A DNA stretch of 64,000 bases from Fusarium oxysporum f. sp. lycopersici 4287. Lineage: Eukaryota; Ascomycota; Sordariomycetes; Hypocreales; Nectriaceae. The DNA is taken from assembly GCF_000149955.1 (NCBI RefSeq), contig NC_030997.1, positions 124,001-188,000 of the forward strand. Direction: 5' to 3'. The notes beneath the pieces were generated by a model. That model was given only the letters and a program-made list of their open reading frames with translations. It was not told the DNA's origin and did not search any database. Both the position numbers and the translations under genes were made by a program. How positions within the stretch are numbered: the stretch's first letter is position 1; every line of letters starts with the position of its first letter. This document shows, one piece after another, positions 40,851 to 63,032 of this stretch.

Positions 40851-41171
40851 CATAAACACAAATGTTCTTGTATCCAGTCGCTGCCGCGTGGATTGTGCAA
40901 GCCTCCATGTTCATGTCGGGACGCGATCCGTGCCCGGCTGCGAAACCCGATGCGCACCGGATACCTAGCCCTACTCTGGTAAAGAAACACGCTATAAGCG
41001 CGGCGCCGCCCCCCGTCCCCGCACAGCTGCAGCAGTTGCAGTGCATTCAATTACGCTGCCATCTATCTGAATCATTTATAGGGAGTGCCGAGACTGCTTG
41101 ATTTGGGTATGCAAGCCAAACTTCTTCTGTCCCCATCGGCCTTCTTTCCAGCCACCGCTTATCGTTCCAAG
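40851..41171 (+). promoter_or_regulatory. G+C-rich promoter with CreA-type CCCCGC site
   Basis: Between the regulator stop and the enolase-superfamily start. CCCCGC at 41017-41022 is the reverse of the CreA consensus SYGGRG, next to CCCCCCGT. It suggests carbon catabolite control of the downstream gene. Clusters of CTGCAG/GCAGTT follow. Confidence 0.4.
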
Positions 41172-42284
41172 ATGCATATCCAAGATATCACAGTGTTTAG
41201 CTACGATGCCGACTACCGATACGGCACATACTCCATGTCACACGGCCGCTTAGCTAAGGGCCACAAGTCCCTCGTCGTCAGGATCCGTTCCAACGACGGC
41301 TTTGAGGGTTGGGCCGAAACTGCGCCTCTTGGTAGTGACTATCTACCAAGTTCATTCACCGGTGAATTAGCAGCCATACAAGAGCTCGGTCCCCAACTCT
41401 TGGGCCTGGACCCGAGATCACCTGCAGCTATCGACGATGTTATGAATCGTGCGATGATGGGCGCTTATGCAGCAAAAGCGGTCATTGATATGGCTTGCTG
41501 GGATATTCTCGGAAAGTCTCTTGGTTTGCCAACCGCGATTCTTTTCGGCGGATATCTTACCGAGAGACCGAGGGCCTTTTCTGTTATCGGCATCCGAGAG
41601 ACAGAAGCTGCTGTGACTCAGGCGAAAGACGAGTTCGGGAAGGGCGCGACTACGATGCAGCTCAAGGCTGGAGATAATCCCCTTGTTGATGCGCAGCGGG
41701 TTAGAGCTATTCGCGCTGCTTTACCAGATCATGTTGTGCTCTGGGTCGATGCAAACGGTGGCTGGACTCTGGACGAGGCATTGAGTTTTGCCCGCACCAT
41801 CGGGCAAGAGATTGCTATTGGAGTTGAGCAGCCCTGCCGTACACTTCACGACTGTGCGGAGTTCGGTCGTCGCACAGGTCTACCAATTACACTCGACGAG
41901 AGTATCGTCACGTTAGCTGATCTCTTTGAAGCTCATGCAGCTGGTATAACAGGCGTGAACATCAAGCCATCTCGTGTCGGTGGACTTACAAAGGCCCGGC
42001 TCATTCGCGATGCGGCTGTTGCGCTCGACATGGTCATAAACTGCGATGATACCTGGGGTTCTGCTTTAACGACGGCTCAGAACGTTCTGTTGGCTACTAC
42101 TACCCCGAGCCATCGTTTGCGCGCTGTAGATTTGTTTTGTGAATGGACGGAGCCGCTTATTGCTGATATTCCGAGGATGGAAGAAGATGGGAGAATCACG
42201 CCTAGCACTGAGCCTGGAAATGGTTATACGGCTATTGTTATGGATATGCTAGGGGAACCGTTGGCTTATATTACTTCTAAGTAG
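41172..42284 (+). CDS. enolase-superfamily enzyme, mandelate racemase/muconate lactonizing type (370 aa)
   Basis: Two-domain enolase-superfamily enzyme: capping domain (about 1-125), then a barrel. Visible residues: Lys in TMQLKAG (K165) on strand 2, metal ligands Asp in WVDANGGW (D193), Glu in GVEQPC (E219) and Asp in TLDESI (D242), and the second catalytic Lys in NIKPSRVGG (K265). Such enzymes abstract the alpha proton of a carboxylate and then racemise, epimerise, cycloisomerise or dehydrate. The K165/K265 pair without a KxK motif recalls the subgroup acting on proline betaines and hydroxyprolines, but sugar-acid substrates remain possible. An in-frame ATG at 41109 would add 21 residues (MQAKLLLSPSAFFPATAYRS) that could be a mitochondrial presequence. 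I start at MHIQDITVFS because the family begins with this beta strand. Confidence 0.85.
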   Translation: MHIQDITVFSYDADYRYGTYSMSHGRLAKGHKSLVVRIRSNDGFEGWAETAPLGSDYLPSSFTGELAAIQELGPQLLGLDPRSPAAIDDVMNRAMMGAYAAKAVIDMACWDILGKSLGLPTAILFGGYLTERPRAFSVIGIRETEAAVTQAKDEFGKGATTMQLKAGDNPLVDAQRVRAIRAALPDHVVLWVDANGGWTLDEALSFARTIGQEIAIGVEQPCRTLHDCAEFGRRTGLPITLDESIVTLADLFEAHAAGITGVNIKPSRVGGLTKARLIRDAAVALDMVINCDDTWGSALTTAQNVLLATTTPSHRLRAVDLFCEWTEPLIADIPRMEEDGRITPSTEPGNGYTAIVMDMLGEPLAYITSK

Positions 42285-42923: not shown

Positions 42924-44022
42924 TTAAAGATTCTCCTGTGCCCATTCATCTAGATTACCGTAAACATGTAGCCAAAGGGAAGTATGGTCCAGATCCTAGC
43001 ACGAGTTAAGTTAGCTTCTCTATTCCTGCGTCATTGAGCAAATGGATATATCACTTACATGCGTCCTCGGATCGGCATCAACCTCTCTAAACGCCTTGAT
43101 AGCAGCTTCACCCGCCGTCGGCGTAATGCCAACCTTTTTCGCAGCCTCGATACCAATAATAAGGTCTTTCACACTGAGCGCCGGCGCAAACGCTCTCTTA
43201 TACTTGTTGCTAGACGGGGCCTCAGGAACAAGACCAGGGACCGGCTGCTCGAGTCCCATCACCCAAGAATTCGCAGTTCCCTCTCTAATGCACTTAAAGA
43301 GAGCTTTCTTGTCGATTCCGTATTTGAGCCCGATTGCCATTCCTTCCGTTGCGACCAGGTTGTTGGCGAGGGTGATGTAGTTGTGCGCTATCTTAGCAAC
43401 TTGACCCATGCCAAGACCGCCGCAGAATGTGATTGTGCTGGGTATACCAACGAGGGATAAGGTGTCATAGATACGCTGGCCTATTTTGTCGTCTGCGTTT
43501 GGCTCGGGATGGCCGACCATGAAGGATAGGGTTCCTGCGTTGGCACCCCACATTCCACCTGATACCGTAGCTTCGACAAAGCTACCAAGTCCAGCATCGA
43601 TGATTGTCTTGCCAAGCTCCTGTGTAAACTCAATCTCAATGGTACTGCAGTCAATCATCAGGCGCTCAGGGTTCTTGGTAGCTGCGATGACACCATTTTC
43701 GGGATCGAGATAGACCTTGCGAACATGGGGGCCTGCGGGAAGACTGGAGAGGACGACTCCAGCGCCGACTTTGTTTACAAGATCTTTTGGCGAGGAAGCG
43801 ACTTCGATCTTGCCATAGCTGCCGAAGTCGTTGATGAGTCGTTGGATAATGGCCTGATCGAGGTCTAGAACCTGAAGAGTTGAGGAAGCGGGAATCTTCT
43901 TGCGGAGGTTACTGGCTATGCCATAGCCGATGATGCCAAGGCCTTGATGGATTAAGTTCTTGTTTGTTTATAAATGTTCTGAGGTTTGAAAACATACCAA
44001 TAACACCGAAATCTGTCGCCAT
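42924..44022 (-). CDS. NAD(P)-dependent 3-hydroxyacid dehydrogenase, 3-hydroxyisobutyrate dehydrogenase-like (326 aa)
   Basis: Exons 44022-43998, 43942-43059 and 42995-42924. N-terminal Rossmann fold with the dinucleotide motif IGLGIIGYGIA, formed across intron 1. Then VVLSSLPAGPHVR, MIDCSTIEIE, a substrate loop EATVSGGMWGANAGT (in place of the usual DAPVSGG) and SFMVGHPEPN. The catalytic Lys and following Asn are in GLGMGQVAKIAHNY. These beta-hydroxyacid dehydrogenases oxidise 3-hydroxyacids (3-hydroxyisobutyrate, tartronate semialdehyde and similar) with NAD(P). The last exon (DLDHTSLWLHVYGNLDEW...) is reached by a GTAAGT donor with a GCTAAC branch site. Reading through would end 13 codons later at a false stop (43020). 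Convergent with the enolase-superfamily gene, suggesting consecutive steps in one degradation route. Confidence 0.88.
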
Positions 44023-45525: not shown

Positions 45526-46116
45526 CTAACCGCAGTTGACTGCATGTGCTGGGTACTTGTTAGGCTGAGAGGTGAGGCGCAGATGACCTTCCCAAGTTCC
45601 ACCATGGGACAGCACACAGCAGCCCATGATAGCTCCATGCTTATGCTGCCAATCAGCACAGTCCTTCACCGCCGCCAGGATAGTCTTCGTCTCAGCCGTA
45701 GTCTTGCAATCATGGCCACTGGTAGTCGCCAGGTACGCATAGCCCTCAATCATATGACCGTTCGAGTCGGTGCCAGTCGTCATGGAGCAAGAATTGTGGT
45801 TCGACTTGCTCTTGATAATGTCGGCGATCTGCTTGTAGATATTTATGCCCGCCTCAGCAGCCAGGATGGTAGTGCCAGCAGCCAAGGCCACCGTAGCCCA
45901 CGCCGTGACGTCGATGTGGCGACGCTTCTCAAAGACAGAGACGTAGCCGGGATCAACGAGGTCCAAAGTTGCCGTGAGGTTGGAGTCTACGCCGTTCCAT
46001 TGCTTGACGAGAGGATTGTAACCTACGCGCTGACTTGACTTGTCATAGAACCCAAGACTCGGTTCAACAAAGCCAAATGCGAGGCAAGCAACCCAAGTTT
46101 TGCTGAGGTTGACCAT
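45526..46116 (-). CDS. small secreted cysteine protein with Kex2-like processing site (196 aa)
   Basis: Single exon. Signal peptide at about residues 1-22 (VNLSKTWVACLAFGFVEPSLG). A propeptide-like segment follows up to FEKRR at 63-66, a Kex2-type dibasic site. The rest would be a mature chain of about 130 residues. It begins with a hydrophobic helix (AWATVALAAGTTILAAEAG) and then holds six cysteines (NSCSM, HDCKT, KDCADW, GCCVL, VNCG) and ends TSQPNKYPAHAVNCG. The precursor layout resembles Kex2-processed fungal effectors and killer-type proteins, but I do not recognise the family and assign no toxicity. Extracellular location is likely. Flanked by A+T-rich decayed DNA on its 3' side. Confidence 0.75.
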   Translation of the reverse strand: MVNLSKTWVACLAFGFVEPSLGFYDKSSQRVGYNPLVKQWNGVDSNLTATLDLVDPGYVSVFEKRRHIDVTAWATVALAAGTTILAAEAGINIYKQIADIIKSKSNHNSCSMTTGTDSNGHMIEGYAYLATTSGHDCKTTAETKTILAAVKDCADWQHKHGAIMGCCVLSHGGTWEGHLRLTSQPNKYPAHAVNCG

Positions 46117-47210
46117 GATCCTGATGATATGCGTATGATAACTGCGGCGGCGTCTAGAATAAAGATGAGGAGCAAGAACTGAAGATCTCCCATAGTATTG
46201 GTTGGAAGGGTGTAGAGAATATGTGTAACTGAGGGATCAGAGGGTCTTTTTATATTTGGAAGCACTCTCCTGTCGCTCGTTGCTCGTTTTCCAAGGCTCT
46301 CTCGTTTTCGCTGCTTTGACCTGCAATTTCGGCTTTTCGAAGGATTGAAAAACTTGATCGTGCTGGTTGTTGGCTCTAGTCGTTGGTTGTTGGTTGTTGG
46401 TTGTATATAAATGGACTGAACAAGGGTTTCATGTGGGGGACCGGATGAAACGGAACAATTCACAAGGTGCATGTGATGGTTGTTGGCTCTAGTAAGGACT
46501 AACAACGCATATAGAACCTTTCCCACAATTCATCCTCCTGCATTCCAAAAGCCAACCCATCGCATGTCGCTATCACTTGAAATATGGAAACATGCGCTTA
46601 ATCGTAGAAAAAGAGTTTACCGCCAAGCGCGCTATAAGCTTAACAAGACAGGCGAATTTCCCTAGTATTGGTCAGGTGTTTGGGCTCTCCTAAGCGCTGG
46701 CTGCATCCAGCCCTGATTATAAAGTTTATCTCGGAAAGAAAAGTGCCGGTTTATGCGGCAAATCTTTCGACCTAGCGCTTTGACCGGCAACGCGGCACAA
46801 CCCGTTGGTGTAATGCGGCAAATAGTATTCCTTTTACCAGGTCATTCAGAACACTACTGGTTCTGAGATAAAAATGCCTCAGTAACATTTGCGGAAGAAA
46901 ATGACTGTTATCTGTTGGCCTACTGCTTCGGCGATTACCACTTGCAGGCAGGCGATGGATGAGCTTCGGTATAGCACGAGAAGAATGAGCTGAATAATGA
47001 TCCAGTGTTTACGATCATCACTTAAGCCTTGAGCACGGAAAATATATCTTAAGAAGTAATGTTGAGTATTATCTAGAGAAGACAATCAATTTGTGCAGCC
47101 TAGTTCGGAACCGAGTAACAGGAGATGAAAGCCTCAAAACGCTGGTGTCATCTTTGGCAATACAGACTCTTAGTGAACTACCCTATCAATACATACCAAT
47201 GGCCAACACC
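46117..47210. other. intergenic with short GTTGTTGGTT-type repeats
   Basis: Near 46370-46410 the word GGTTGTTGGTTGTTGG is repeated imperfectly, and GGTTGTTGGCTCTAGT occurs twice (about 46363 and 46478). CGGCAAAT occurs twice near 46755-46820 (TGCGGCAAAT). No gene recognised. Confidence 0.45.
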
Positions 47211-50200
47211 CTAATGAACAACGCTAGCCACCTCTTTCGCAGTCTGAACCCCCTCAACCTGTTCCCCAGCCCACTTATTCCCATCGAATACATGTCTATA
47301 TACGCCCGAATTACTCAACTTCTTATAAAACACATACATTTTATCCTCATAAACAACAGAACAAATATCCCCCTCGATATCATCGCAGTCCGGTATAAGC
47401 ATGGCTCCGGTCTTCTTAGAAAGCGTTATCCAACGCTTCCCATCAAAGGCATTATACCACAGTTTCTTAATGTCAGCCTCGCCGTATCCTCGATGCATCA
47501 GATACAGCTTGTTCTGATAAACCGCTGCCGTAACACCGGATGTCGCATATCGAGCAAGGGTATGTGCCTTTTCCCAGCGCCTTCCGTCAAAGGCAACATA
47601 AGCATACCTGTGGGAGCTGAAGCCGTATCTAGGGAGATAGAACAGGTATATCTTGTCGTTGAATACAACAGCGGTAAAGCCCACGGTGACGTCGTCGATG
47701 TGGATATCAGTGTCGCCCTCCCATGTTCGACCGTTGAAGACATTGTATTGAAGTTTCTCTTGGGGAAGTCCATGGTGGAAGAGGTAGAGTTTGCCTTGGA
47801 AGGTGACGGCACACATCCCTGGTGAGGTTACGGTATTTGGAATAGTCGTGGCAGCTCCTCTTGTCCATGCTCCTGATACGTATGATTCGTAAAACACTTG
47901 TGACTTATGGTTTTGGGGGTTAAGATGGAAATGAAAAGCTTCTTCTAGAATGAAGCTAGGCAGAAACCATCGCTGATATGTAGTCCAAAAGACCAAACCT
48001 TGTAATCCTTGCTCCAAGTCTGGCCATCAAAGGTGCTCCAGTATGGCCAATCTGCGTCGTTATTTGCGCCGCGGTGAATTAGATGGATCTTCGCTTTATG
48101 ATCTGGAACATGAGGCTCAGGCTCAGGCTCAGGCTTTGGATCTTGTGGCGTGGGGTCTGGTTGTGGTGTCGGCTCTGGCTCCGGCTCAGGGAGAGCAGGA
48201 GGTTCGTCCTCATGCCCCCAAGTCGCCAACTTCTCAGCAGCCTGTGAGTAAAGAACCGAAATGCCCTGATTCGGCGCCCACTCAACACGGAACGTCTCAT
48301 GTATATCCATCCACACGGCTTGAATCTCAAACATCAAAGGCTTATCATCCGCAAAGGTCATGTTACTTGCCCTGACGATTATCTTTGTGACACGCGGAAT
48401 ACCCTTCTTCAAGGTATTCAGAACATCCTTGCTGATCTGAGATACCTCTTTCATGACCCTCTTAATATCATCCAGCGTTGCGATGAGATGATTGACTTGT
48501 ATCTCCATGTTTTCGTAATCCTTCTTCTTGTTCATGTACTCATGTTGCGCAGGTAACATCTTGATCTCTCCCTCAATCTCAGCAATCCTCTTCCTCGCAG
48601 CTTCTTGTTTCGGTGAGAGTCTCTCCTCAGTCTTGTCAAGATCCTTCTTCGCTTGCTCGTAAGCAGCCTCGAGTTCCTCGCTCTTCCTTACCAATGCTTC
48701 GAGCAGTCTGATTTGACGATTCATATCTTCTCTTTCATCCTTTAACATCTCCTCGATCCAGGCCGCGAGTCCTCTGTTGACGAAACCATCGAGCGCTCTT
48801 CCAAACTGGTCGATCTTTCTGGCTGCTTCGTTGATCGCCACTTCGATGCTCCGGAAGGCTGGAAGGTCCATTATGGCTTTTCCCGCGTGTCGGAGTTCTG
48901 CGTCGATTTCTTTTCGAGCATGCGCTTCTTCGAGACCTAGCGTGGCTTCTGTGAGCTTGGCGACCTGAGAAGGTGTTAACAAGCTGATGCATGTACGTGT
49001 ATGAAGGGCCAAATGGCACGTACCCAATATGCCTTGTCATACCATGCACAATGATTCAGGTTCCACTCGCAATTCCTCTTCCAATCATGCCGCGTTTTTT
49101 CGAGTCCTGTCGAGGTCAGAGTTTGTCGGTGGCTCAAAGGTCGAGTACTTACGACCCCACCATTGCCAACTTCTGTCCGCCTCCCTGTAGCTTCTCAATG
49201 CATCTCCCCAACTCGCGTCTCGACTATCTATCAATCTCTTCTTCTCTCTCTCCATAGCATCCCTTTTCGCCTTTTCTTTCTTAATCTCATCATCATACTT
49301 CTTCTTCATCTCTGTCTTCTTGGTGCCAAGCCGCCTTCTTGCCTCATCTCTCAAATTTCGCTGCTTTTCAATCTTCTTCTCATTTCTCTCCTTGGCCTCC
49401 TTTGCTTCTCGGTAAGCCTCTGCGTACTTATCGAACTCATCATGAAGTCCCCTCAATAACTCGTTCTCTTTATCAATCTCATCCCGCTTCTGCAAGACTT
49501 CTGCAGTGCACTTCTTTTCTAGCTTATCCAGCTCACTCTTCATTGCTTTCAGGGCAGCTTTCTTCTGGGCGAGTTTTGTGGTCAAGTCGCTCCGTGCATT
49601 TTCGATGGCCTTGTCGGCTAGTTTATGCAGTGCGTCAATACCGTTCGTGATGCCTTGCAAGATAACACCCAAGATGTCAGTCTCCAAGATTGCCTCGAAG
49701 CTCATCTCGGCCCCTTCAAGAGAATTGTGATTCTTTACCACGACATCAGCTTTGAGGCTCAACAGCAAGCTCTCGGTCAGCTTGATCTTGATATCAACTT
49801 TGAGGTACTGCTCTTGGATGTCAAGGTCAAGAAACACACTGATCTCGAGGCTGTAGTACCGGATCCTGCCGTCAATGAACAACTTCTGCCTGTCTTTGGT
49901 CATCTCAATATCCATCGTTGCCCGATCAACGCCCTCTCGCGTAGATGTAATTTCAAGACCGCCGACCTTGAAATTGTCAATGCCGGCTTTGATAACAACG
50001 CCATTTTCATCGAATCTACCGTCGAACTCTCCTTTCTTGCCAAAGCACCACATCTTGCTTGCACCTGAATACCGCGATCGTAATAGCGACCCAAAAACTC
50101 AGCACCAGATGAGACATATAGCTTAAGGTCCTTGAAGACTAGCTTGTCCTCCGCACCTTTCATCTGCTGCATTGCTTGGTTATCAATGAGGACGCCAGCG

Positions 50201-53200
50201 AGCTGGATAATTTCCATGGCATCAAGATTGTGCATCTCAAGTTGGAAGACTGCCTCGGCGCTGGTAACACGTAGACCCATGTCGAGCTTCGCACGGAACT
50301 TTCCAATATCGACTTGTCCTCGGAGAGCAATTTCACTAGGTTCCGTTAGGGTTTTAGACTAACAGTAAACGCGGGACTTACTCTGGTCCAGTAACGAGAA
50401 CAGTCGCATATGTAAAGCCTGTTCCGAACCCGAGCTGAGAAAAGACCATGTTCTTGTTCAGATTAAATGGATTCACCCATTTAGAATCATCAGACATTTT
50501 CCTACCAAGCCGTTAGCAGTGCATCATCACAGCATGCCACCAAACTTCCAATTCTCCTCTTGCACCCTTGAAGCTTCCAACAATGACTCCCTCCACAGAA
50601 ATAGGATCTGAGTCTTTGAAGGTCAAAGTCAATGTTGCGTGGATGTTCAACTCTGGCCCCGTAGACGGCTTGATGGCGATAGTAGTACCGAAGCTGTGGA
50701 GGTATGCAGTATCCGAAAGTTGCAACTAAAACACATCAGTACGATCCAGCGTGGGCATACTTGGGGGCTTACTTTGAAGGACTCGGGGAGATAAACAGTA
50801 GCACTGATTTTGCCGTTCGAAGTTATCGATAAGACGAGTGTGAGTCCTTCCAACTTCTTCTTCCCGTTGAGTTCCTCAAGCTGTGGGAAGGAGGGGATGG
50901 TGGCACAAAGCTGCAGGCCTAATCAAGATGTTAACTCGACAAATTAAAGCATCGGATATGTACTTACCTTTGACAACAGGATAGTTGTACGCATCAACCG
51001 TTCCCAAGACGTCCCAGTTGTCTGGCTCCTTCGCTTCTTCCTCTTCATCCTCATCCTCATCCTCTTCTTTCTTGTCTTTGTCCTCATCTCTCTCTTCCTC
51101 CTTCAAATCCTTATCAGGCTTCTCCTCCTCAGCGACTTTGAGCACATCAAGGCTGTTTATCCAGATTTCGCCATCTGACACCTCATTGGTAATCGCCTTG
51201 GGCTTCAACTCATCACTCTTCTCTTTATCACCATCTTTCTTCTTTTTCTTCTCATTACCATCTTCATCTTCTTTCTTGTCATCTTTCTTTTTCTTCTTCC
51301 TCTCATGAGGTGAAGCGATAAGTGCAATGTTCCTCAATTCCAGGTTAAGAAAGCTATCCTTTGGAATATCATTCCAGATCTCTCTCAACCTGACGTTCTC
51401 AATAGCACCGAATGCCAGCCACTCCCTCTTCTCCTTGTCTTTCTTCTGCTCAGTGTAAAGTCCGACCTTGATGGCGACCTTGTTGATTTCGACCACACCT
51501 AGAACGCCGAATCTGCTTCCTCTCTTGATTTTTTTCGTCTTGTGATCCTTCTCCTTCTTTTCAGATGGAGTCTTGGCAGATGATTTATCACTTGACTTGA
51601 CCAGACTCTTCTCTGCCACCTCACCATCTTGATCCTTGCCGAGTACCTCGGGTTTGCTCTCGCCAGTGGGCTTAGAGTCCTTCTTGTCCTTGCCACTCTT
51701 CTCATCCGGCTTCTCCTCATTCTTCTTGGACTTGAATCCAAAGAAGATCTCCAAGCCCGCTTTTTTAATCATGATCTCAGTATCAGGGATCTTGACGTCT
51801 GAAATACCACCTTGGACAGTCACTCCCTCACTCGCGAAGGTAAGGCTCCCGACTGCGCTCGAATGTTCGTTGAAAGTGACTTTTCCGTTGAGCTCAAGGG
51901 CTTACCTAGTAGTCTTCTCTTCTCTCGACTTCTTACTCGACAACTTGAGTTTCATCTCTTTGGAAGTGATTTCATTACCTCCAGCTGTCTTCTTCTCGTC
52001 CTCTTTTTTCTCGTCCTCTGGCTTCTTCGTCTCCTTCTCAGGTAGCGTCTGTCCCGAGATCTGTGCGTGCATTTTCTTGATGTCAGTTAGTGTAAGGTCA
52101 CCTACCTCAGCCTCCAGAAAGTTATCATCTAGATATGTTAGCAGCTGTCTATCTAATTGCATCTTAAACATACCTCGCGATATCTGTCCTTTGACTTTAA
52201 GGGTTCCATCTCCTAGCTCCAGCTCCGCTGACAGTTCCAGCTTAACCGTGCTGCGAAAGTCGCCCTCCTCAAATGATGCCTTGAGCTCCGCATCTTTCAT
52301 CTGGCGCGCGTTATTAGCAACGCCTTGGAAGCAGCCTCTGGACGTACCGTAACGTTCTCAATACCGTAGATGTTCTCCCACTTGTCCGGTTTGATGAGCA
52401 AATTCCAACTTCTCTTATGTTTGGACTCGTCCTCCTTCTTGTCGGTCTCCTTGCCTTTCTGATCATTCTCTCCGCTCTTGTTGTCATCGTCTTTAGGGCT
52501 TGCATCCATCGTCTTGATTGACTTGTCATTCGCAGCTACTCCTCCTCCTTCATCCTCAGCAGCCTTATCGTCCTCATCACCCTCTTTGTCGTTTTTTTTC
52601 TTATCTTCCTCTTCCGCGGCAACAAAGTCTCTCGCAATCCTGTAGTTCATATCCAACGGGACATTTACATGGGGAACTTTTGTGACTAGCACGGTTCCGA
52701 AAAAGGCAAAGCCAAAGAACCAAGACTTCTTCTCTTTCGCTTTGTTGTCGGAACCTTCTTCATCGTCCTCCCCCTCCTCATTCTCACCACCACCATCATC
52801 CGGACTCTGTTCAGTTGCGCGGAACTTACTAAGCTTGGTTGTCTCATTCTCTCCGCTGCCAGTGTCGTGATCGCCATCAGTCTCACCCTTTGGCTTTCCA
52901 TCTTCATGCTTATCGCCTTCGGGTTTTTCTTTTGATGGCTTGTTCTTGGTCGCTTTGGTGGCTGTGATCTCAATACCCAGCGTCCTGGAGTTCAAAAGAT
53001 CCCAAACCTTCAAAGCTAAAGGTGGAAAGAAGCCTTGGAGTACGAGATTCTCAATCTTGGGCCTCTTTGACCAGTCGCGCGTGTCCGCCAAATGGGCACT
53101 GAGATGAATAGACTTAGGAGGGTCAGTGGGTCCAAAGAGTTTCTTCAAGGCATCACCGGCCCAGGCAAGACTATCCGTGAACAAGACGTCCACTTCGAGT

Positions 53201-54435
53201 CGCAGACCGGGCTTGAGAGAAAGTTCTTCTTCTCTTCAGAGTAGGTGAGCTCTAGGTTCTCCACGGGAAGGTTCTTGAGGTTGAAGTCGTTAATGGAGGG
53301 GAACAGTGTCCCCAAAGGCTGGCCTTTGAGGCTGAAGCTTTCCGTGTCCAGTTTGATCTTCTCTCTGGCGGGTTCGTCCTTATCGTGCTCCTCACTGTCC
53401 TCCTCTTTATCATCCTTGTCATCCTTGTCATCTGACTGTTTCGTGTCTGGTTCGGTAGACAAGGGTACCATCTTCCCACTCGGTTCGTCGGTGTCATCTT
53501 GATTCTTATCCTCTTCATCTTCCGTTTCCTCGGGCACATCAACGACATCCTTCTCAGGTCCTAATAGTGAGTCAGGTTCGTGTCCAATGTATAATTCACA
53601 TGAACGCGGTTGAAGGAGGCGTCTGCAATCATGATAGATGTAGTCACTTACCTTTATACTTGTATAACTTGGCAGTCAAGCCCTTGATCCCCCAAAAGTC
53701 ATCTATATCTCCAGACAAGACAAATCCATCCATCTTAGACCTCCCAAGCTTCTCCTTCTCGCTTTCCTCATCCTTCTTCTCCTCAAGTGCTCCTCCTGCC
53801 TTGAGGGCAGTAAGGGCCCAAGGAATGGGCCCCGAGGTCGATTTGCCAGGGCTGTACAACGAGAAGCTCCAAGTCTCGTACAGATTCATGGCAGTTGAGT
53901 CGGCACTTTTGATGTCGGAGCCGCCTCGGCGTTCATCGGGAAGAATAAGGAAAGGCATTGGAGGCTTTTCGGTCTCATCATCCAAGATCTTGGCAACCAG
54001 TTGAGCAGGCTGCCCCTTGCTTGCTCGAATAGGCTGGACGGGAAGGTCGGCGAAGCCATTTATGTCCTCATCTGGGATGACAAGACATAGATTGCGTACG
54101 ACAGCGCCTCCGATAACTATAACTCGCTGGACAGGAGGATTATCGGACTTGACAGTTCTGTTCCAGCCCGCGAAGCTAGCACCAGCATCGGGCGGGGTGC
54201 CGGGCTGCTCATCGGTCTCTGAGTCAATCTCGGACAGTTCTGGGATCTCAACGTCGGGGCGAAAGGCAAGAGGTGTAGATCCTATGATGCGGCTGATGGG
54301 AACATCGAGAGAAGGCATTTCAATTGGATCCATTTCTTTCTCAATGGCATCTCCGGGGAGGACCAAATCCGGATCTGGGTTGGGCGGAACGAGGCCCCAT
54401 TCTGGAGGAAATTCGTAGCTCGATTGAGATGCCAT
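47211..54435 (-). CDS. giant multidomain protein with charged linkers, coiled coils and C-terminal propeller-like repeats (about 2,236 aa)
   Basis: Eleven exons: 54435-53652, 53560-52348, 52300-52174, 52128-51906, 51857-50968, 50918-50773, 50725-50541, 50501-50382, 50335-49153, 49106-49024, 48964-47211. All phases close if one base is restored at each of three spots (near 53226, 50056 and 47949). No signal peptide (MASQSSYEFPPEWGLVPPNP). The first 1,500 residues hold several beta-rich segments (FVLSGDIDDFWGIKG, VLGVVEINKVAIKVGLY, VSDGEIWINSLDVL, SKWVNPFNLNKNM) separated by Lys/Asp/Glu-rich linkers. Two long coiled coils follow (about 49550-49200 and 48960-48500), then a Pro-Glu linker (PEPEPEPTPQ). 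The C-terminal domain has at least five repeats of the type YVAFDGRRW...SGVTAAVYQNKLYLMHRG, like beta-propeller or lectin-like repeats. Intron 51905-51858 has a GAG acceptor; without it a TAA (51904-51902) stops the frame. Function unknown. Confidence 0.75.
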
Positions 54436-58092: not shown

Positions 58093-59795
58093 CTAATCGA
58101 CCGGCGAAACAGTAAGCATGAGCCTTCTCCCGCGCGGAGCTATATTGAACCGATCCTCCATCTCCATCTCCCAATCCTTCATTTCTTCCGCAACTCTAAA
58201 CCTTAAACCTGATCGCATGACCTCGCTTACAGCCCAATAAAGCTCCTGCCACGCAAGATTCTGGCCGATACAATTTCTCTTACCAAGACTAAACGGTGTG
58301 AGAGCAGATTTCATCTCCGGAGTCTCGGCGAGCCATCGCTCAGGGATGAATCTCTCTGGGTCCGGGAAGACTGAGGCATCGTGGTGGTGAAGCCAATTCT
58401 GCATTCCGACAACCGTGCCTGATGGGAGAGTGTACTGGCCGAGCGTCATAGGCTCGGTAAGTAGACGAGGTAGGGTTGAGATGATTGTTGGATGAGCGCG
58501 GAAGGTTTCTTTGATGATTGCATTGATGTATGCGTTGTTTCTGATGACCACAATATCATCATCAGGTATTGCCAGTACTTCCGTGCGCAATCGCTCCTGA
58601 ATAGCGGCGTTATCCGGCTTTGAGAGCTCGTACAGCAAGTATGTCAATGTCGACGATGTAGTACCCGAGCCAGCAAACATATAGCCCATAGCTTCCTCGA
58701 CAAGCTCTTCATGAGTAAGTTTGCGCCCCAGGTATCCATCAACCCCAGTCGCAAGAGGCGTAAGCAAATACTTCTCATCATCCGTACTCTTCTCCAGAAA
58801 GTGATCGACCATCTCATAAGACTTCTCCCGCCAGTAATCTCGTTTACGATATGAGTCACCAATGGCGCCTGGCAATTTGGTACCGACGTCAAATCTGGCT
58901 ACAAAAGGAAGGGCGCCGTCAAAGAGCAACGTAAGGGCGCTTCCATCCATTGCTTGGAGTAGTTTGAGAGCAGCTGCGCCATTGATGTCGTTGGAGAAGT
59001 CTTTTGCGAAGCCAGCTTGGCATATTACCTCAAGGCTGAAGAGACCGCATAGTGTGTAGGCATCGACGGGAGATGATGTGCCGCTTCTAAGCCGTTGCGC
59101 GAGACGTTGGGCATTGCCTTTTATCAAGGGATCGAGCAGCACAACGGACTGCATTGAGTATGGGGGACTGCTCATCTTTCTTCGTGCAGCATGTTGTTGG
59201 ACATTTCTATTATATCAAGTCAGATATGATATCAGGCCCTACCATATGAAGCCAGTGGAGAACGTAGGAGGAGGTGACAGAAAGGAAAACTATACTCACA
59301 TCATCTGGAAAATATTGTCTTTACCCACAAAGGTAGCAGCTTCATAGAAGTCTGGGTTTTTAATCATTCCCTTGGTATTGAGATAGATGGTGCGCAGGTG
59401 TCTCCAGTTACTGATTGATACCTCATTCGGACCAGTTCGTACAATAGGACCGTACTTCCTGTGTAGTTCCTCCAGCTTCTGTATTCCGGTTCTTGTATCA
59501 GCATAAGCTCGAAGGGGATGGTTGAAGATGCACATACGTAAACGCGACGGCCTTGTATGGTACTCAGCCAAACTGCTGCTCCAGTGAGCTTGGTAGAGGA
59601 TGGCCCGGGGACATGTCGAAGTGGACTGAAGAGTAAACGACGGATAATCTGCAAAGCTCTCGATTAGACGGTGATATGAGCGGAGAGACGGCGACTGACT
59701 TTAATTGATAAATAAAGCAGACATAACGATAGTGAGAGCACTGTGAGGAGAGCTTCTCGAGAGAAGTCCGAAATGTTATCAAACAAGCCGCTCAT
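58093..59795 (-). CDS. cytochrome P450 monooxygenase (499 aa)
   Basis: Exons 59795-59700, 59648-59538, 59478-59300 and 59206-58093, in phase. N-terminal membrane anchor (ALLTVLSLSLCLLY), hinge PLRHVPGPSSTKLTG, then KYGPIVRTGPNEVSI. C-helix NVQQHAARRKMSSPPYS. I-helix oxygen-binding motif GYMFAGSGTTSST. ExxR in KETFR. PERF region FPDPERFIPERW. Heme-binding loop FSLGKRNCIGQNLAW with the thiolate Cys. All catalytic elements are present. An ER-bound oxidase using CPR electrons is expected. The sequence looks like the CYP families that oxidise secondary metabolites or xenobiotics in Pezizomycotina; the substrate is unknown and no biosynthetic core enzyme is adjacent. Intron 2 uses the ATACAG acceptor 16 bases beyond an AAG alternative that breaks the frame. 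Confidence 0.93.
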
Positions 59796-60877: not shown

Positions 60878-63032
60878 ATGTCCACACCTCCTATCTCGCA
60901 GCTATGCAAGAACTGCTCACAGGTTCTCGATATCGATTTTTTGCTGGACCATTACCCCATCACAACAAAGGCTACCGCCCATACGANNNNNNNNNNNNNN
61001 NNNNNNNNNNNNNNNNNNNNNNNNNNNNNNNNNNNNNNNNNNNNNNNNNNNNNNNNNNNNNNNNNNNNNNNNNNNNNNNNNNNNNNNNNNNNNNNNNNNN
61101 NNNNNNNNNNNNNNNNNNNNNNNNNNNNNNNNNNNNNNNNNNNNNNNNNNNNNNNNNNNNNNNNNNNNNNNNNNNNNNNNNNNNNNNNNNNNNNNNNNNN
61201 NNNNNNNNNNNNNNNNNNNNNNNNNNNNNNNNNNNNNNNNNNNNNNNNNNNNNNNNNNNNNNNNNNNNNNNNNNNNNNNNNNNNNNNNNNNNNNNNNNNN
61301 NNNNNNNNNNNNNNNNNNNNNNNNNNNNNNNNNNNNNNNNNNNNNNNNNNNNNNNNNNNNNNNNNNNNNNNNNNNNNNNNNNNNNNNNNNNNNNNNNNNA
61401 AGGTCCATTGACCAGTGTGAATCAACCTGTCATCCGCGGGGGCCTTCTGGCTCAATTCCCTCGCGACTTCTCGATATATCGGATTATAAAACCAGGGGAC
61501 GGATCCAACTCGTGCAGACAGAGAAGTTGCCAAGAGTCAAATACGCAGCGCTAAGCTACTGCTGGGGAAATGCAGATGATGCAGCTTATCAACCGAAGAC
61601 AAATTCTGCCAATTTATCAGAAAGGCTCAATGGTTTTTGTATCGACACTATGTCTCCTGTCGTTCGCGATGCTGTCATCACTTGTCAAGCCTTGGGGATG
61701 CGTTACTTGTGGGTTGACGCGCTCTGTATTCTCCAAGGGAAAGCTGATGTCGCGGACTGGGACATAGAAAGCCAGAAGATGACTGACATCTTTCGCAATG
61801 CATATATCACGATTTGTCCATCGTCGTCAAACAGCTGCCGGGAAGGTTTTCTAGGTCAACGTCTGGTGCACCCTGGCATTCGTGTCAAGACTCCGATAAC
61901 ATCAAACGCTATTTTCCAGAACGAAAGCCGGGAATACTCTATTTTGCCATACTTTGAGCATGATAAGAATACACCCTCCTTCATTAACAGCCATGAGTTT
62001 ATAAATTCGAAATGGTACAGCCGCGCTTGGGTATGGCAGGAAGTAAACTTTTCAGCCCGTCTCGTCATCTTCACACCTACATTTGTCTTTTACCGGTGTC
62101 CAGAGACTCTGCTGTGCGAGAATGGCGCTAGAAAAGAAACAGCAATAATCCGAGAAGGGTTAGGAGAATATCACAGTAAGAGATATCAAGATGCACAGCC
62201 GTTTGCATTCTTCAGAACCTGCGTGGAAGATATCTCAAGCAAGGACATCAGCTTCGAATCAGACCGTTTAGCGGCAGTGGCAGGTGTTGCCAAGCAAGTT
62301 TCTCAAGCGACAAGTAGTCAATATGCTGCTGGTCTCTGGGTCAAGGACATTTATAAAGATTTGATCTTTGAGAGAAATCTTCGCTCGCGAAACAATCGTG
62401 ACAAGGGCGGACTCGAGAAATACATCGAGTCATTGAAGACCAGACACTCTGCGATAGGACCTACGTGGTCTTGGCCTGGACATAGAGCCGGAGTCTGTTG
62501 GGACTCGAACTTCTCGTCGGTGGACCACGAGACTCTGCAGCTTAATTTTGCAGATTGGAGATATGAGTGCAAACATCTCGTTATCACCACTGACAAAGTA
62601 GGTGATAACTTGTTTGGTCAAGTCAGCCGGGGTTCTTTAGCTGTGACCACTAAAATGGCGTCTTTGACTGAAATTGCAGCACTTCACGACGGAGACGATG
62701 ATGAACTGATCAGAGACATGCTGATTACGCCGGAGTATACAAGTCAAGTCGCTTGCGGTATCAAATGGAACTGGGATGTTGACAACGAGGAGACTTCAAG
62801 TCATCTGGCAGATAAGATCCTGGCCATGGCATTCTCTAGCTGTTTATATGGACGCAGTAGCATCAGAAACATGTATGGATTGATGGTGTATCCGGCGGAG
62901 AAAGAGGGCGAATATTACCGAGTAGGATCCTTCGAGGCAGAGAGTACTGCTGATGATGATGATGATGCCGACGAGAATACTGGGGTTCTTATGGCAGAGG
63001 AGTGGAAAGAGAGAAGTATTGTAATCATTTAG
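60878..63032 (+). CDS. HET-domain protein (contains N gap)
   Basis: Starts at ATG 60878 (MSTPPISQLCKNCSQVLDID); the CxxC start is common in HET proteins. A 413-N gap (60987-61399) follows, then PSRLLDIS, KYAALSYCWG (HET block 1), MRYLWVDALCILQ (block 2) and SRAWVWQE (block 3). The C-terminal half is a helical region with TRHSAIGPTWSWPGH, ending in an acidic stretch (STADDDDDADENTG). The frames on the two sides differ by one base with the stated gap length, so either the N count is an estimate or an intron lies in the gap. The likely role is incompatibility or cell-death signalling after non-self recognition. It is not closely related to the HET gene at 2698-4811 and keeps an open frame. Confidence 0.87.
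60987..61399. other. assembly gap (413 N)
   Basis: Run of N inside the second HET-domain gene. Confidence 0.99.

Follow-up and report, generated by a model that had tools for sequence, protein, structure and literature searches.

The window analysed here is a 64,000-nucleotide stretch of Fusarium oxysporum f. sp. lycopersici 4287 (assembly GCF_000149955.1, contig NC_030997.1, positions 124,001 to 188,000, forward strand), which carries on its minus strand a 7-kb gene whose reading frame is broken. With confidence only a little above even, we read this gene as a decayed copy of one long gene that encoded a probably cytosolic recognition or defence protein of ~2,250 residues and is being lost in F. 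oxysporum. The predicted protein would have amphipathic beta modules split by charged linkers of low model confidence, two coiled-coil-like stretches, a Pro-Glu hinge and a lectin-type propeller tail.

The gene begins with an ATG at 54435 and its stop codon ends at 47211, exactly the bounds given in a first-pass annotation of the window. It comprised 10 exons and 9 introns with a spliced length of 6,756 bases (Table 1), one exon fewer than had been claimed; the extra exon probably came from treating a stop region as an intron. Intron lengths were 39-91 bases, with the 39-base intron as the odd one out. The X-joined protein had 2,243 positions, 13 of these filler X. This is near the 2,252 amino acids of the F. 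xylarioides relative P0003 and near the 2,237 codons counted earlier. The three bases restored to reach that count fit the three frame changes described below and at the same time mark a broken reading frame, so the closure of the arithmetic is not sufficient proof of a working long gene. The proposal of one long gene instead of several was upheld by relatives, which held the same N-terminal, beta, and coiled-coil modules co-linearly on one polypeptide, with the window exons matching piece by piece. Full-length unfused Fusarium models measured 2,230 (P0006) and 2,252 (P0003) residues. No homologs with these exons in separate genes were seen; instead, some models were fused to neighbour genes and several were truncated.

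The window copy had no open reading frame. It contained two in-frame stops and three frame changes, one each in exon 2 (~53.24 kb), exon 8 (~50.06 kb), and exon 10 (47.95-47.90 kb), at sites across which relatives' proteins stayed in frame. Out-of-frame letters past the exon 2 break also started in models P0011 (f. sp. melonis 26406) and P0010 (Fo5176), and the exon 10 stop recurred in P0010. Sequencing error is therefore unlikely for these two lesions. At the exon 8 break P0011 was in frame and P0010 omitted 31 residues before the break, so this lesion may be private to the strain or stem from misassembly. The splice junction predicted from relatives' proteins near the end of exon 6 had no GT in the window; the alternative donor used in our gene model agreed with the letters of P0011, and P0036, another F. 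oxysporum model, ran into the intron after exon 6 and then stopped. All 7 F. oxysporum models found were incomplete, each with 4-10 gaps of at least 8 residues, while 5/13 other close models had no such gap, a comparison between predicted gene models in which the F. oxysporum set represents 90% clusters and which is partly built in, as 7 of these 13 served to set the reference columns. We conclude that the lesions are mostly real and that, for practical purposes, this strain has a pseudogene or, at best, a gene that gives truncated products.

Homolog searches recovered 38 proteins (25 with the X-joined protein, 9 new among 21 from a profile search, and 4 new among 5 from a core-only search). 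All were ascomycete among the candidates scored, which in each search were only the ~8,000 sharing most words. Twenty-five were from Fusarium and 13 were labelled Aspergillus (4), Annulohypoxylon (2), Rosellinia, Rostrohypoxylon, Poronia, Trichoderma, Stachybotrys, Arachnomyces, and Cenococcum. The f. sp. melonis protein FOMG_09799 had 98% identity over 75% of the query, and P0003 had 83% overall identity to the window protein. Searches of the 61.2 Mb assembly, in which the gene's contig is C12, gave one DNA match and 11/11 protein matches at this locus with only the best candidates scored, making this the only copy found in the genome. Scans against Pfam, NCBIfam (nine window pieces only), and PADLOC and PHROGs (two relatives each) returned no match above curated cut-offs for the gene's own modules, and matches below cut-off were coiled-coil, Kelch, or chance. 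No description of the family was found in the open-access literature, where giant-propeller and lectin papers were judged on title or the start of the abstract and six locus tags gave no result. The gene belongs to an ascomycete giant beta-scaffold family for which we found no established name. The first-pass statement that the architecture matches nothing holds for Pfam and NCBIfam cut-offs but was too strong for the tail, whose repeats were found in bacteria.

Two sets of labels within the family drew attention. P0032, labelled Aspergillus niger, had 48% identity to the Rostrohypoxylon member over 98% of the latter, with the other Aspergillus members at 33-34%, and is possibly mislabelled or transferred. 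The last 70 residues of P0028 (Trichoderma viride) and P0029 (Stachybotrys elegans) agreed at 62/70 by eye, closer than expected for two genera, for which transfer or a wrong label is also possible.

The tail was predicted to fold as a beta-propeller (predicted local distance difference test (pLDDT) of 85; the 231 residues modelled cover most but not all repeats), in agreement with the propeller-like tail first proposed. Its nearest PDB folds by Foldseek and VIA were the fucose lectins PLL/PHL, AFL, and AAL. Internal repeat scores were 110 for P0019 and 70 for P0003, whereas 60 shuffled versions of each reached at most 46 and 38, and the repeats are thus not chance. The tail occurred in 17/25 Fusarium proteins and 0/13 non-Fusarium members. 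PLL/PHL, seven-bladed Photorhabdus lectins and the best matches in both structure searches, are alike in propeller fold but share only 11-15% identity with the tail, which by our own reading has about six repeats and sits on a giant scaffold. The hydrophobic sugar site of PLL/PHL is described as having two conserved Trp (PMC12203525), versus mostly one obvious Trp per FDG..W repeat here, as counted in the sequence. Fungal fucose lectins (AAL, AFL, AOL, AofleA, and SapL1) were solved as chains of ~300-350 residues, unlike the giant protein here, and no Pfam fungal-lectin family was among the tail matches at E 10. No Pfam Kelch model reached its curated cut-off: PF01344 scored 19 bits against 20.1 and PF24681 19.7 against 50. 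The PDB sequence search with the window tail gave no match, and a ricin B chain match to a relative's tail (E 0.46) was read as chance.

Sequence relatives of the tail were found in bacteria, within a Tolypothrix GH18 protein and free-standing in Rhizobium and Streptomyces (plasmid tblastn); in the 8 of 12 records listed, identity was 22-29% and the match covered 66-100% of the tail. These F(D/N)G..W Kelch-like proteins have repeats related to the tail, but no beta scaffold or coiled coils were seen in them, and in Tolypothrix the repeats are placed after the GH18 domain, unlike on the Fusarium scaffold. Pattern scans of bacterial genomes gave 86 and 58 matches, none confirmed. Since plasmid tblastn did find relatives, these negatives reflect the pattern method.

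Tail identity to P0003 was 71-90% in 10 close relatives but fell to 46% in P0019 and 28% in P0021; for the main beta part the values were 88-95%, 63%, and 59%, respectively. The tail was less conserved than the main beta part in 12/12 comparisons, recounted because the alignments of P0002 and P0005 had included fused neighbour letters. The first coiled-coil-like stretch fell below the tail in 3/12 (P0009, P0012, and P0016, all F. fujikuroi) and tied with it in two (P0017 and P0019). Fast change thus marks the tail but is not unique to it.

For the rest of the protein, the window translation contained the Lys/Asp/Glu-rich linkers, two coiled-coil-like stretches, Pro-Glu hinge, and five F(D/N)G..W motifs noted earlier, and strands were predicted on the N-terminal half of a relative where beta-rich segments had been claimed. 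The beta part was modelled from P0036, without the last beta module of exon 8, at a mean pLDDT of 58.4 and a predicted template modelling score (pTM) of 0.47. It had no Foldseek match to known folds at E 0.001 (best 5.5e-3), with large beta structures nearest, and its VIA matches had a root-mean-square deviation (rmsd) of 7.5-11.7 Å. RBG proteins were not among the fold matches listed, which excludes nothing; the overall confidence of the model was low. The charged linkers are dispensable: no K/D/E/G-rich window was flagged in 3/7 relatives scanned (P0024, P0025, and P0028). In five close-relative pairs, linkers were 47-84% identical and beta modules 85-98%, excluding the window-P0014 pair because P0014 is missing much of two beta modules, one down to 27% over 11 residues. 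A hydropathy scan of seven relatives, which is not a dedicated predictor, found no clear signal peptide or membrane stretch. The P0024 N-terminus was mildly hydrophobic. The protein is probably cytosolic, as the first-pass annotation had it.

DUF6603 (PF20248) was tried as the family and rejected, being absent from this locus and from the Pfam matches of window pieces or relatives. Its search of the genome gave six matches at five other places (contigs C4, C8, C9, C10, and C13; L002-L007), some in very long open frames of up to 1,842 amino acids; the C13 match holds a TAG and the C9 place gave two matches. No significant BLASTP or hhalign result linked the two for the three of the five places that were compared, where DUF6603 was represented by single sequences. 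The likeness between these large fungal proteins with long open frames and the beta-rich texture here is an impression, and an open-access literature search for DUF6603 found no paper.

We favour a recognition or defence protein because the lectin-like tail changes fast, the scaffold is probably cytosolic, the family is scattered among ascomycetes, and the gene is decaying in F. oxysporum. In such a protein the coiled coils would multimerise it, the tail would recognise variable glycans or proteins, and the beta part would serve as scaffold or effector; it would then have become dispensable in F. oxysporum. A more specific version, a cytosolic chimera directed against fungus-eating animals whose tail binds gut glycans and whose remainder acts on membrane, seems unlikely to us, though it has an analogy in fungal fruiting-body lectins without secretion signals, which are described as cytoplasmic and ingested by grazing animals (PMC6272156). 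Its tail folds lie nearest fungal and Photorhabdus fucose lectins, its relatives have no clear secretion signal, as in those cytoplasm-stored lectins, and the 12/12 rate difference, scattered distribution, and gapped F. oxysporum models are also in its favour. However, the same source describes fruiting-body defence lectins as small (PMC6272156), the 13 non-Fusarium members have no tail, no toxin family reached cut-off, and in some species the coiled-coil-like stretch equals the tail in rate of change. Broader still, and quite unlikely, would be a new class of giant cytosolic recognition proteins with a membrane-active or lipid-binding amphipathic beta sheet and coiled-coil multimers, to which Fusarium added a fast-changing bacterial-type lectin propeller, acting against fungus-eating animals or foreign cells and undergoing repeated loss in F. 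oxysporum. The idea that the tail is the fastest-changing folded module was not upheld in the cleaner count, and this slightly lowers the odds of the favoured recognition or defence protein, of the chimera and of the new class.

The main structural rival, which we consider rather unlikely, makes the beta part a sheet or groove that handles lipid in the manner of bridge-like lipid transfer proteins or apolipoprotein B, with the coiled coils docking it and the tail as an accessory. The residue alternation that would suggest it is normal for any soluble beta sheet, five relatives scanned had no lipid-transfer Pfam domain, and the fold matches of the beta part (none at the Foldseek threshold, high VIA rmsd) and the confidence of its model count against it as well. 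That the gene is intact in this strain, its lesions being assembly errors or hidden introns, is improbable: the remainder is well conserved at the overall identity to P0003 given above and P0011 keeps its frame across the exon 8 lesion, but every one of the two stops, the three frame changes, and the junction lacking GT would need to be an error or an intron. The models of other strains also oppose this, since P0010 and P0011 share the exon 2 frame change and P0010 has the exon 10 stop as well. Several short genes are suggested by the broken frame and the missing family match above cut-off, but we give them almost no weight, as members from Fusarium, Trichoderma, Stachybotrys, Rosellinia and kin, Aspergillus, Arachnomyces, and Cenococcum hold the core modules on one protein.

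Table 1 Coordinates of the gene, its parts, and a neighbouring marker in the window.
Feature	Position	Strand	Remarks
Whole gene, reading frame broken	47211..54435	-	10 exons; homologs found
Exon 1, N-terminal region	53652..54435	-	82-85% identity in five pairs, window-P0014 excluded
Exon 2, acidic linkers and beta modules	52348..53560	-	frame change near 53.24 kb
Exon 3, beta strands	52174..52300	-	strands predicted in relative P0036
Exon 4, beta modules with K/D/E-rich linkers between	50968..52128	-	strands predicted in relative P0036
In-frame stop TAA inside exon 4	51902..51904	-	models P0010 and P0011 skip residues across site
Exon 5, beta strands	50773..50918	-	strands predicted in relative P0036
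Exon 6, beta strands	50541..50725	-	GT missing at the junction expected from relatives near exon end
Exon 7	50382..50501	-	
Exon 8, last beta module and first coiled-coil-like stretch	49153..50335	-	frame change near 50.06 kb
Exon 9, short link containing Trp	49024..49106	-	
Exon 10, second coiled-coil-like stretch, small core C-terminal domain, Pro-Glu hinge, propeller	47211..48964	-	
Propeller tail, spread over two frames	47214..48100	-	predicted fold; repeats counted in relatives; bacterial relatives
In-frame stop TAG, propeller repeat 2	47945..47947	-	frame change just downstream; model P0010 ends at same residue
Introns 1-5	53651-53561, 52347-52301, 52173-52129, 50967-50919, 50772-50726	-	
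Introns 6-9	50540-50502 (39 bases), 50381-50336, 49152-49107, 49023-48965	-	
Downstream neighbour, DUF6736 (CSS2 C-terminal) gene	45529..46236	-	conserved; synteny marker outside gene

The DUF6736 neighbour shared 80% identity with the end of P0001, the fused F. phyllophilum model, which carries a sulfotransferase domain between its family part and its DUF6736 part. The sulfotransferase (PF17784) follows the gene in some relatives' models and had no match at window 46294-47210. Elsewhere in the window, enzyme-like frames at 41082-42281, 43023-43967, and 58096-59214 resembled mandelate racemase/enolase, 3-hydroxyisobutyrate dehydrogenase, and cytochrome P450, and a masked stretch at ~60900-61550 translates as X in several frames.

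These results bound a family of ~1,500-2,300 residues in several ascomycete genera, below all Pfam and NCBIfam cut-offs. They suggest that what is annotated in a different way in every F. oxysporum genome is a single decaying gene, and this would account for the inconsistent models. The tail gives the family a testable ligand, and if it binds glycans the protein would be a lectin on an unusually large intracellular scaffold.
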